Positions 23,690-26,829 of a stretch of 64,000 nt of DNA are shown piece after piece (the first letter of the stretch is position 1; the number at the start of each line of letters is the position of its first letter). The stretch is from Nitzschia sp. DOCU1. Taxonomy: Eukaryota; Bacillariophyta; Bacillariophyceae; Bacillariales; Bacillariaceae. A program made the position numbers and the translations under genes. The DNA lies in contig OX595988.1 in the NCBI GenBank assembly GCA_951394045.1, positions 868,001-932,000 on the forward strand, read 5' to 3'. The notes below the pieces were generated by a model. The model ran no database searches. It was not told where the DNA came from and saw nothing but the letters and a program-made list of their open reading frames with translations.

Positions 23690-25777
23690 ATGATCGGAAC
23701 CTTCGTTTCATCAGTTGCGGCAAGAAGTTCAGTGAAAAATTTGCTTCGCCGTCGGCCCCTTTCGTGCTTGCCAAACTCGTTTCGGTCGGCTGGAGGATGT
23801 CAACATGAAAGATTTTTTGGAAGTCAACATGTTCTCGGCTTGACATCATCTATGGAGTCCCAAAATCGGTTCATTTCAACGACAACGCCAGCAAACGCAT
23901 CTGCAGTTTTTAGCGGATGGACTCCCCTGGATTGGCACAAAGATACCTTCATGTCCAATGCTAGCGTACGAGAGAAGGAAGCATGGTTAGACTCAATGCT
24001 TAAAACCGATGAAAGAAGCGTTGATATCGAGGCTTTTATGATCGTTCTACGGGCTTTGAGCGAATCTCGCGATGCTGGTGCACCAATACGAGCAGAGAAA
24101 TGGATGAGTCGCCTTCTGGAGCATCCGCACGTCGAACCTACTGTCAGTGCTTATCAGGCTGTCATCCAGGCCTGGGCGAATGCTGACAAAGAAAAACCTA
24201 TTGTTGTGGTCAACAGAGCGGAGAAGTGGCTGAATGATCTTGTTGGAGCCAGCCAAAAAAATCCGGACGATGAAAGCCTAAAACCGACTATCGAGTTGTA
24301 CAATGCCTATCTTGATGCTTGCACTCGCGGACGGCCAGGGAACAACAAGCACGACACCACGATTATCATGGCAAATGCTATAAAAGCCGATGCATTGTTG
24401 AGAAGGCTTCATTCCGAGTATTATCATCAGGAGGGTTCGCCCAGACTGTCACCCAATACCGAATCGTTCAATTACGTAATTCGAGGTTGGACCCGATGTC
24501 AGCAAGGGATGGTGGTATTGAATCGAATATTAGGCCTACTGCGGCTAATGGAAGCTTACCAACGGAGTGACCCAGTGAATGCCGTTGTTCGGCCAGATTC
24601 TAAGTCATATTCGATGGCAATGGACGCACTTGCTCGAAGAGCGAGAATGAAAGCACGTGCGTGTATTATGGAAGGGGGTTACTCGAAGGATGCGACAAAA
24701 AATGGCGTGGCCGAAATGAATGAAGCTGAAGCTCTTTTGAAGTATATGCACGAGCTTTACGACGCTGGTGTGGAAGGAGTGGTTCCTGGTCGCGTCGCCT
24801 ACAACTTATTGATTGGGGGCTGGGCAGGGCTTGCCGAGGCAAAACATTTCAACGCTCCGTTTCAGGCTGAAGCGATTTTTCGACGTATGTTAGCACATCA
24901 AGATAACGGTTTCAACGAAGCGGCGCCAGACCGAGTTTCATATGAAAAGGTCATGCTCGCATGGGCGAATTCTCGCAACCAAAATGCTGGCAAACGTGCT
25001 CAATGGTGGATGCAACAGCTGTGGAATGCCTCGGAATTACAAGGCAACAAAGACCTACTGCCTACAAAATTTACTTACAATATCGTAATTAAGGCGCTGG
25101 CTTTTTCCGAAGGAGCGTTGGCAGCTGAAAATCTACTTTTGGACATGGGCGACCGGTATCGCAAAGAGATGTCACATTCTCTTTGTCCAAACTCAGAATC
25201 CTTCGCCATTGTCATTCAAGCATGGCTTCGTCAAGTCCACCAAGAAAGATCCATTGAAGGTCAAATTGGTGCACTCCAGCGAGCAGTTGAATGGCTGAGC
25301 AGCTTGCGAGAGATCGAAAAGGACAACAACTTGTCTACAACGCCGGAACAGTATCATCGGGTGCTCGAGGCCGCAAAAACGTGTGCCAGAGAACGACCAG
25401 AAGTTCTTGATTTAGCAAAAACTATCTTCCATGATCAGCAGCAGTCTCGTCATGGTATCGATGTCTTCTCGTATTCTCGACTGTTGGATGTGGGACTCGA
25501 GGCTCTATCGTCGGCGGAAAACACGGAAGAAAGAAACAATTTTGTTCAAAGTTTGTTTCAGAGTTGCTGCGAGGATGGTATGCTCGGCAAATATTTTGTT
25601 CGAGCTCTTGTGAACTATGATGGATGGACGCTGGAAGAACGAGAAGAGATGCAACAGCGCCTGTTCCACACTTGGCCATTCCCGCCATCCTGGACTAGAA
25701 ATGTGAAAAGCACGTTTCATGTTGTCGAAGAGCACGATTTTGCGAGATATATCGACTCATCATCACGGAGACATTAG
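23690..25777 (+). CDS. Pentatricopeptide-repeat (PPR) protein, organellar
   Basis: Single exon, 695 aa from the ATG at 23690. The first 45 residues are rich in Arg and Ser without acidic residues (MIGTFVSSVAARSSVKNLLR), a mitochondrial-type presequence. From about residue 130 there are degenerate 35-residue PPR motifs. Examples are PTVSAYQAVIQAWANA, PTIELYNAYLDACTRG, PNTESFNYVIRGWTRC, PDSKSYSMAMDALARR, GRVAYNLLIGGWAGLAEAKH, PDRVSYEKVMLAWANS, KFTYNIVIKALAFSEGALAA, and PNSESFAIVIQAWLRQ. PPR proteins bind single-stranded organellar RNA for processing, stability or translation. The spacing between motifs is irregular, with insertions, as in stramenopile PPRs. No DYW or other C-terminal catalytic domain is present. 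Confidence 0.88.
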   Translation: MIGTFVSSVAARSSVKNLLRRRPLSCLPNSFRSAGGCQHERFFGSQHVLGLTSSMESQNRFISTTTPANASAVFSGWTPLDWHKDTFMSNASVREKEAWLDSMLKTDERSVDIEAFMIVLRALSESRDAGAPIRAEKWMSRLLEHPHVEPTVSAYQAVIQAWANADKEKPIVVVNRAEKWLNDLVGASQKNPDDESLKPTIELYNAYLDACTRGRPGNNKHDTTIIMANAIKADALLRRLHSEYYHQEGSPRLSPNTESFNYVIRGWTRCQQGMVVLNRILGLLRLMEAYQRSDPVNAVVRPDSKSYSMAMDALARRARMKARACIMEGGYSKDATKNGVAEMNEAEALLKYMHELYDAGVEGVVPGRVAYNLLIGGWAGLAEAKHFNAPFQAEAIFRRMLAHQDNGFNEAAPDRVSYEKVMLAWANSRNQNAGKRAQWWMQQLWNASELQGNKDLLPTKFTYNIVIKALAFSEGALAAENLLLDMGDRYRKEMSHSLCPNSESFAIVIQAWLRQVHQERSIEGQIGALQRAVEWLSSLREIEKDNNLSTTPEQYHRVLEAAKTCARERPEVLDLAKTIFHDQQQSRHGIDVFSYSRLLDVGLEALSSAENTEERNNFVQSLFQSCCEDGMLGKYFVRALVNYDGWTLEEREEMQQRLFHTWPFPPSWTRNVKSTFHVVEEHDFARYIDSSSRRH

Positions 25778-25886: not shown

Positions 25887-25952
25887 TACTGCAATTTCGA
25901 ACAAGGAGCAAGTGTTCAAAAGGAAACGGCTTCCTGTCGTCATTCTGCAATA
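25887..25952 (-). promoter_or_regulatory. Candidate SECIS element in 3' UTR
   Basis: On the transcribed (minus) strand, 32 nt after the stop, the sequence folds as a form-II SECIS. Helix I is UAUUGC (25952-25947) with GCAGUA (25892-25887). An internal loop follows. The quartet strands are AUGAC (25943-25939) and CGAA (25899-25896), giving tandem G.A/A.G pairs. Helix II is GACAGGAAGC with GCUCCUUGUU, nine of ten positions paired counting G.U. Above it is a mini-stem GUUU/GAAC with loop CCUUUU. The usual unpaired AA is replaced by CC, a variant known in some SECIS elements. The fold was drawn by hand. Confidence 0.65.
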
Positions 25953-25983
25953 TTCATCTCTCTTGCCACGTAAACCGGATCTC

Positions 25984-26829
25984 TTAGACCTTTGGAATCT
26001 TTCCGTTCATTGCGTATAGCCCAGCAAATACCAAACCGCTTAGCACGAGAGCTACGCTAGATGACTGAGGCAGGATGGCAAAGGCTCCCGCCGCTGCCAC
26101 ACAGCGAAGCGCTGTATCCGCGTTCATGGCATTCACCTTGTCCAAAATGGCGCTCGCAATGCTAGCGTCCTCGATTTCTGACAAGCCGTTGCCATCTACG
26201 GACCAGAGCCCGCTTTGCGCTATATTTCATAAACCGGACTCATAAGACAATCGGTATCCAACTGATAGCATGAGTGGGAAAAATGTCAAGAGTCTCAGCA
26301 TGTGACCACCAAAGTCGCCTTGATCTCCAATGAGGGCGGCCCAAACAGCGTAGACGACCGTCACAACAGTCATGACCTTGGAGGCCTGCAATCGGCGGTT
26401 GCGCTCATCCATGTCGATATTTTGTAGGTTTCGGGTCGCCTCCTCTCGTCGCAAAGCCGCTTCTTCCGGTGACGCCCGCTTAGATTCTGGCACAGGACCA
26501 GTCGTAAACGGACCATAGGCAATGGTTTCTCCAGGAGTGATGCCAGCTAGTTCGAGATATTGTTGCATCCAGGCCATCGGACCTTTGTTGACAAATGCCT
26601 CCTTGGGTTGCTCGACTTGCAATGAAGTGGGGGCCGACTGCTCGACTTTTGTCTTCGCTTCCATTTCTGGCTCTGCTATTGCGGACGACTGTCCAATTCG
26701 CGTCGTTCTTTCCACGACGAAGTACGCGGCATTCTGCTGATGCCGAAGTGAATGGATTGCCCGAGGGGCAAATCCTTCGACGACAGAAGTAGCTGAAAGA
26801 AGAGCTACGACCACGGACGGAATTTTCAT
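25984..26829 (-). CDS. Candidate plastid membrane selenoprotein (in-frame TGA)
   Basis: Read through one TGA at 26229-26227, the frame runs 281 aa from the ATG at 26829 to the TAA at 25984; the TGA is codon 201. Upstream of it is a signal peptide ending VVEG/FAPR (ASAFAP-type, so plastid import is predicted), an acidic linker, and two membrane segments (VMTVVTVVYAVWAALIG and LLTFFPLMLSVGYRL). The TGA context is YESGL-U-NIAQSGLWSVDGNG. Another 80 protein-like codons follow, with two more hydrophobic segments (ALRCVAAAGAFAIL and VALVLSGLVFAGLYAM). The downstream part keeps the same frame and composition. Selenocysteine is favoured because a SECIS-shaped hairpin lies 32 nt past the TAA. Alternatives are a 39-nt intron (GTTTAT...CGTAG) that also keeps phase, or a pseudogene. 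Molecular function is unknown. Confidence 0.7.

Follow-up and report, generated by a model that had tools for sequence, protein, structure and literature searches.

A candidate plastid membrane selenoprotein with a SECIS-like hairpin behind its stop codon, encoded in a diatom nuclear genome

Diatoms need selenium, a requirement that is commonly ascribed to a few known enzymes. Diatoms encode selenoproteins, eukaryotic insertion of selenocysteine (Sec) requires a SECIS in the 3′-UTR, and the known diatom selenoproteins mostly carry CxxU, UxxC or GPx-type sites. According to the main text of a survey of algal selenoproteomes, there are 42 families and 20–44 selenoprotein genes per diatom (PMC7539508). 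For T. pseudonana, 16 selenoprotein genes have been described in the text of an earlier paper, all of them in named families, that is, GPx, SelT, TR, SPS2, SelM, SelU, MsrA, PDI, methyltransferase, peroxiredoxin and thioredoxin-like (PMC2375036). The same text presents MSP, which has two Sec and occurs in Dictyostelium, Chlamydomonas, Volvox and Ostreococcus, and leaves it unmarked for T. pseudonana. No plastid membrane selenoprotein of diatoms was found described in the titles and abstract openings of the open-access literature, and the accessible parts of PMC5139114 and PMC3237563 contain nothing on the family considered here. We hold with considerable confidence that the locus analysed below is a nuclear diatom gene whose product is a membrane protein imported into the plastid, with a single Sec at codon 201, the decoding of which would depend on a hairpin.

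Like MSP, the candidate would be a eukaryotic membrane selenoprotein of a unicellular organism whose function is likewise unassigned, but its frame contains one TGA whereas MSP, by its description, has two Sec, which sets the two apart (PMC2375036). It resembles the 'Hypo' and UGSC families, as these are described in the main text of the algal survey, in being an algal selenoprotein without clear function (PMC7539508). With the known diatom selenoproteins of its own genome it shares the TGA, and the AAUGAC core of its 3′ hairpin recurs behind several of them. Unlike those proteins, which have named domains, the candidate gave no meaningful match to a known family or fold in Pfam, NCBIfam or PDB, and the CxxU motif is absent from its sequence. 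It might be a real selenoprotein of a family already recorded under another name, for example among the 'Hypo' entries of SPDB, given that the 42 algal families include one called 'Hypo: hypothetical selenoprotein', known here by description (PMC7539508). However, the main text of that survey makes no mention of plastid, transmembrane, transit or chloroplast, and we regard this identity as unlikely but far from negligible. The locus is thus best read as a selenoprotein family that is probably without a name so far, the 'Hypo' entries and MSP being compared by description only. In kind, it would be a new selenoprotein family with Sec insertion by the known mechanism.

The candidate gene lies on the minus strand of the window, the whole stretch of 64,000 nt that was analysed. 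Its frame of 281 codons (26829–25984) is broken once, by a TGA at codon 201 (26227–26229), the predicted Sec codon, and is closed by a TAA at 25986–25984; the coordinates agree with those of the initial annotation, which had called a single in-frame TGA in a frame that is protein-like on both sides. When the protein was searched against the 52-Mb genome of 63 contigs, its own locus was the sole match at E ≤ 10. That the genome belongs to a diatom is shown by the silicon transporter family, which has 18 matches in it, all above the cut-off. The neighbouring gene is a plus-strand ORF of 695 aa from the first ATG (703 aa from a TTG) that ends at 25777. The stops of the two genes are separated by a gap of 206 nt, inside which the hairpin is found.

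Among the factors that Sec decoding calls for, tRNA-Sec, eEFSec and SPS2 were all found in the genome. Five tRNA-Sec genes, each with anticodon TCA, were located, four in tandem (G000:C5:639526-640069) and a fifth elsewhere (G000:C6:887673-887758), a number that exceeds the one usual in most eukaryotes. A single ORF (L032) carries the eukaryotic SelB domains PF21208 and PF21131 of eEFSec; against the bacterial selB model it scored 172 bits, below the cut-off of 242. In addition, we found nine TGA-bearing selenoprotein genes, corresponding to SPS2, SelT, three GPx, TrxR (GC-TGA-G), SelM and two SelU-like proteins, the TGA positions of which we take to be known Sec sites.

We then compared codon 201 among relatives of the protein. 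Nine were retrieved by a protein search in which the TGA was read as Cys, and eight more by an alignment query that scored the best 7995 candidates by word sharing, giving at least 17 with the window excluded. Results showed that, among the 17 relatives listed, which are known from predicted proteins alone, ten are cut exactly before the site and end in ...GL (P0002–P0005, P0008–P0010 and P0025–P0027), five carry Cys (P0006, P0028, P0030, P0031 and P0032) and two carry Trp (P0007 and P0029). One of the cut proteins, P0002, adds little because it is 98% identical to the window sequence. The proposal that codon 201 is Sec, which homologues were to decide, is favoured by this distribution, the codon itself being seen in this genome alone. 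Related loci sought in viral and genome contig collections yielded no relative. In an unrooted tree built from the upstream domain, a branch with support 99/96 has all ten cut relatives and the window protein on one side.

Sequence conservation was present on both sides of the TGA. The upstream conserved domain, delimited by the alignment of relatives, covers about residues 76–200 (26230–26604, minus strand) and ends in GYRLSYESGL. The downstream conserved domain comprises residues 202–281 (25987–26226, minus strand), starts with NIAQSGLWSVDGNGL..., and includes Cys243 and two predicted helices (222–252 and 255–275). When the 80 residues after the TGA were used as the sole query, they retrieved 14 separately called proteins of 72–81 aa that are 56–79% identical (E 6.8e-26 to 5.3e-16), which bears out that the frame is protein-like beyond the TGA as well as before it. 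For seven of the ten cut relatives, a downstream partner was found whose longest contig is equal in size (14281, 10863, 7104, 5312, 3621, 3313 and 1114), and from these matching sizes we infer that the paired halves sit on one contig; the 1114 pair is less certain because P0019, a further fragment that comes from a different source, fits too. No size-matched downstream partner was found for P0002, P0009 and P0025. In the seven pairs, identity to the window protein was 69–76% over residues 75–200 and 70–79% after the TGA. Conservation of both halves in seven relatives is not what an accidentally broken gene would show.

These data bear on the alternative that the functional protein is a short form of 200 residues, the frame after the TGA being a relic, an independent short gene or a spliced exon. 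Such a short form is what gene callers propose when they end the protein at the TGA in ten of the 17 relatives listed, and 20 GT..AG cuts that span the TGA and keep the frame exist mechanically. However, the downstream frame is conserved like the upstream one in the seven paired genes, and the Cys relatives align without a gap through ...G(L/V)CNIAQ... across the site. Therefore, the residues flanking codon 201 belong to the protein, and a splice across the TGA would delete conserved residues. Splicing-out of the TGA is disfavoured on the basis of these alignments, and we find the short form hardly credible.

A second alternative is that plain readthrough, or decoding as Trp, carries translation past the UGA to a long form that lacks selenium, as the Trp of P0007 and P0029 would suggest. 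Both proteins come solely from the source 'jgi', which is also the source of the Cys relative P0030, and both are rich in Trp in non-conserved stretches: P0029 has 4 Trp among its first 37 residues, and P0007 has 6 among its last 114. As judged from the predicted proteins, their Trp is probably a TGA that the gene caller translated as Trp. Five relatives have Cys at the site, which argues against a Trp reading, and TGA also serves as a normal stop in the window, where it terminates 3 of the 18 ORFs of at least 300 aa. The presence of the Sec machinery and of a SECIS-like hairpin speaks in turn against a selenium-free long form, so that we consider this alternative very unlikely. Overall, the candidate is very likely a selenoprotein.

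Close to the C-terminus, four relatives (P0006, P0007, P0028 and P0031) diverge or terminate directly after ...(F/Y)AG. This break suggests a common intron position that is missing from the window gene.

The SECIS-like hairpin is located in the 3′-UTR on the minus strand (25887–25952) and begins 32 nt past the TAA. Its outer stem pairs 25952–25945 with 25894–25887, UGAC (25942–25939) faces CGAA (25899–25896), and an inner stem and a mini-stem are present, so that the SECIS-shaped fold of the initial annotation, with its position, its UGAC/CGAA and its mini-stem, was recovered as claimed. The AAUGAC core is common to this hairpin and to those behind SPS2 (three), SelT, one GPx and TrxR. When the 224 nt past the stop were shuffled 1000 times with dinucleotide content preserved, a hairpin following the same rule occurred once, with either core. 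The core, the stems and the position would fit a eukaryotic SECIS element, but the folding energy is ordinary, with a z of −0.10 for 124 nt (84 of 200 shuffles folding as well) and of −0.69 for 76 nt (42 of 200). The Rfam model SECIS_1 gave no match at the hairpin, a silence that says little because the model was silent across the entire genome; the SECIS elements of the control genes look too diverse for one covariance model. At the apical position where an unpaired AA or CC would be expected, a script found neither in the window hairpin, nor in the best hairpins behind the SPS2, SelT and TrxR genes and one GPx gene.

How often the rule is matched elsewhere depended on the core. With the AATGAC core, both strands of the window (128 kb) gave three loose matches, two of them at an energy ≤ −21.5, namely the window hairpin and one located antisense inside a 335-aa ORF. 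The ATGA core gave 26 loose matches on both strands, of which 9 had an energy ≤ −21.5, and 6 of these 9 were strong-stemmed, including the window hairpin; the rule without the AATGAC core is less specific. Only four of the seven control selenoprotein genes had an element within 700 nt by the loose rule, which found no hairpin for the GPx gene L028 and the SelM gene L041, and for L026 accepted one at +947 only, another at +118 failing the rule. A strict rule (inner stem ≥ 9, outer stem ≥ 7, energy ≤ −20) retained SPS2, one GPx and TrxR, that is, three of the seven controls. As background for the strict rule we used 183,654 bases, both strands counted, from 26 of the 41 loci, the other 15 having been dropped as the window's own locus, the seven controls, or overlapping or near-duplicate loci. 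The AATGAC core was matched twice in this background, by the TrxR element (L037 overlaps L040) and by one behind the SelU-like gene L017. There is no clean AATGAC background match, because the first is the TrxR element itself and L017 is of the Sec type. The ATGA core was matched eight times, and the matches in L017, L021 and L037 are located behind TGA-bearing genes.

At the N-terminus, residues 1–20 (26770–26829, minus strand) resemble a signal peptide that ends in ...VEG-FAP. The F at an ASAFAP-type junction is key for import into diatom plastids. In the alignment, the F20 column is nearly invariant. A loose scan of residues 11–75 in 13 sequences, that of the window protein among them, showed A-F or G-F in 12; the pair is Q-F in P0031, and for P0006 the scan picked an A-F that precedes the aligned one. 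The ASAFAP-type plastid leader that had been called at this locus is thus borne out as a signal-peptide-like start followed by G-F-A-P; the leader would be bipartite, and plastid import is likely as judged from the sequence. A plastid membrane location is also the likely prediction, and it is plausible that the predicted crossing of four plastid membranes would make this selenoprotein unusual.

Hydropathy flagged residues 1–25, 147–171 and 243–278, and the latter two correspond to the hydrophobic segments that the initial annotation had placed before and after the TGA. An AlphaFold2 model built from 32 rows reached a mean pLDDT of 70.6, with residues 1–74 below 50, and predicted helices at 140–168, 173–180, 183–198, 222–252 and 255–275, placing Sec201 between helices. 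The placing of Sec relative to the membrane is uncertain because hydropathy does not pick out helix 183–198, which adjoins it. Cys243 occurs in 15 of 22 sequences; the window gene and the seven paired (cut or TGA-bearing) genes, eight in total, all have it, whereas in two of the five Cys-type relatives this residue is Val.

Taken together, these features would fit the following mechanism. A nuclear diatom gene may encode a plastid-imported membrane protein with one Sec at codon 201, and its mRNA would bear a SECIS hairpin directly past the stop, from which a SECIS-binding protein, eEFSec and tRNA-Sec would decode the UGA by the known eukaryotic pathway. The signal peptide and the F-junction would route the protein across the ER and the plastid membranes. 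Sec, placed between predicted helices and just ahead of the conserved NIAQxGLW, would most likely be the single redox centre at the membrane surface, and Cys243 may resolve it, since none of the eight cut or TGA-bearing genes compared lacks this residue. The redox role itself is drawn from general Sec chemistry, because the protein matches no known family or fold and lacks CxxU; homology gives its function no support. As a guess, the role might be the reduction of peroxide or lipid peroxide, or redox sensing, in the plastid membrane. We give about even chances to the proposal that this is an undescribed diatom family lacking a thioredoxin fold in which a membrane-surface Sec and Cys243 perform a redox task of the plastid membrane. 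If true, this reading would tie selenium directly to plastid function, a link not seen before, and a conserved selenoprotein of the plastid membrane with no known domain would be a target on which the role of selenium in the plastid can be tested. The family is hidden in databases, where gene callers split the gene in two at the UGA.

Further observations concern the other selenoprotein genes of this genome. The SelU-like (AhpC-TSA_2) genes L017 (C14, TGA at 1434) and L021 (on the minus strand of C8, with its TGA at about position 1285 of the reversed locus) share RRPG-TGA-FLCR, a UxxC site, with a SECIS-like core about 73 nt (L017) and about 10 nt (L021) past the stop; the family search had shown no internal stop in either. 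Two more SelU-like loci, L018 and L020, were tried as selenoproteins and left uncounted, their profile match containing a TGA and a TAA and no convincing Sec motif. A second selD-like gene (L011, G000:C14:875736-876722) has no in-frame TGA, the Sec-type SPS2 being on C10. At L012, three similar hairpins (GGAATGACxAGGCAAGC...) follow one another in series, 160–750 nt past the stop of the Sec-type SPS2.
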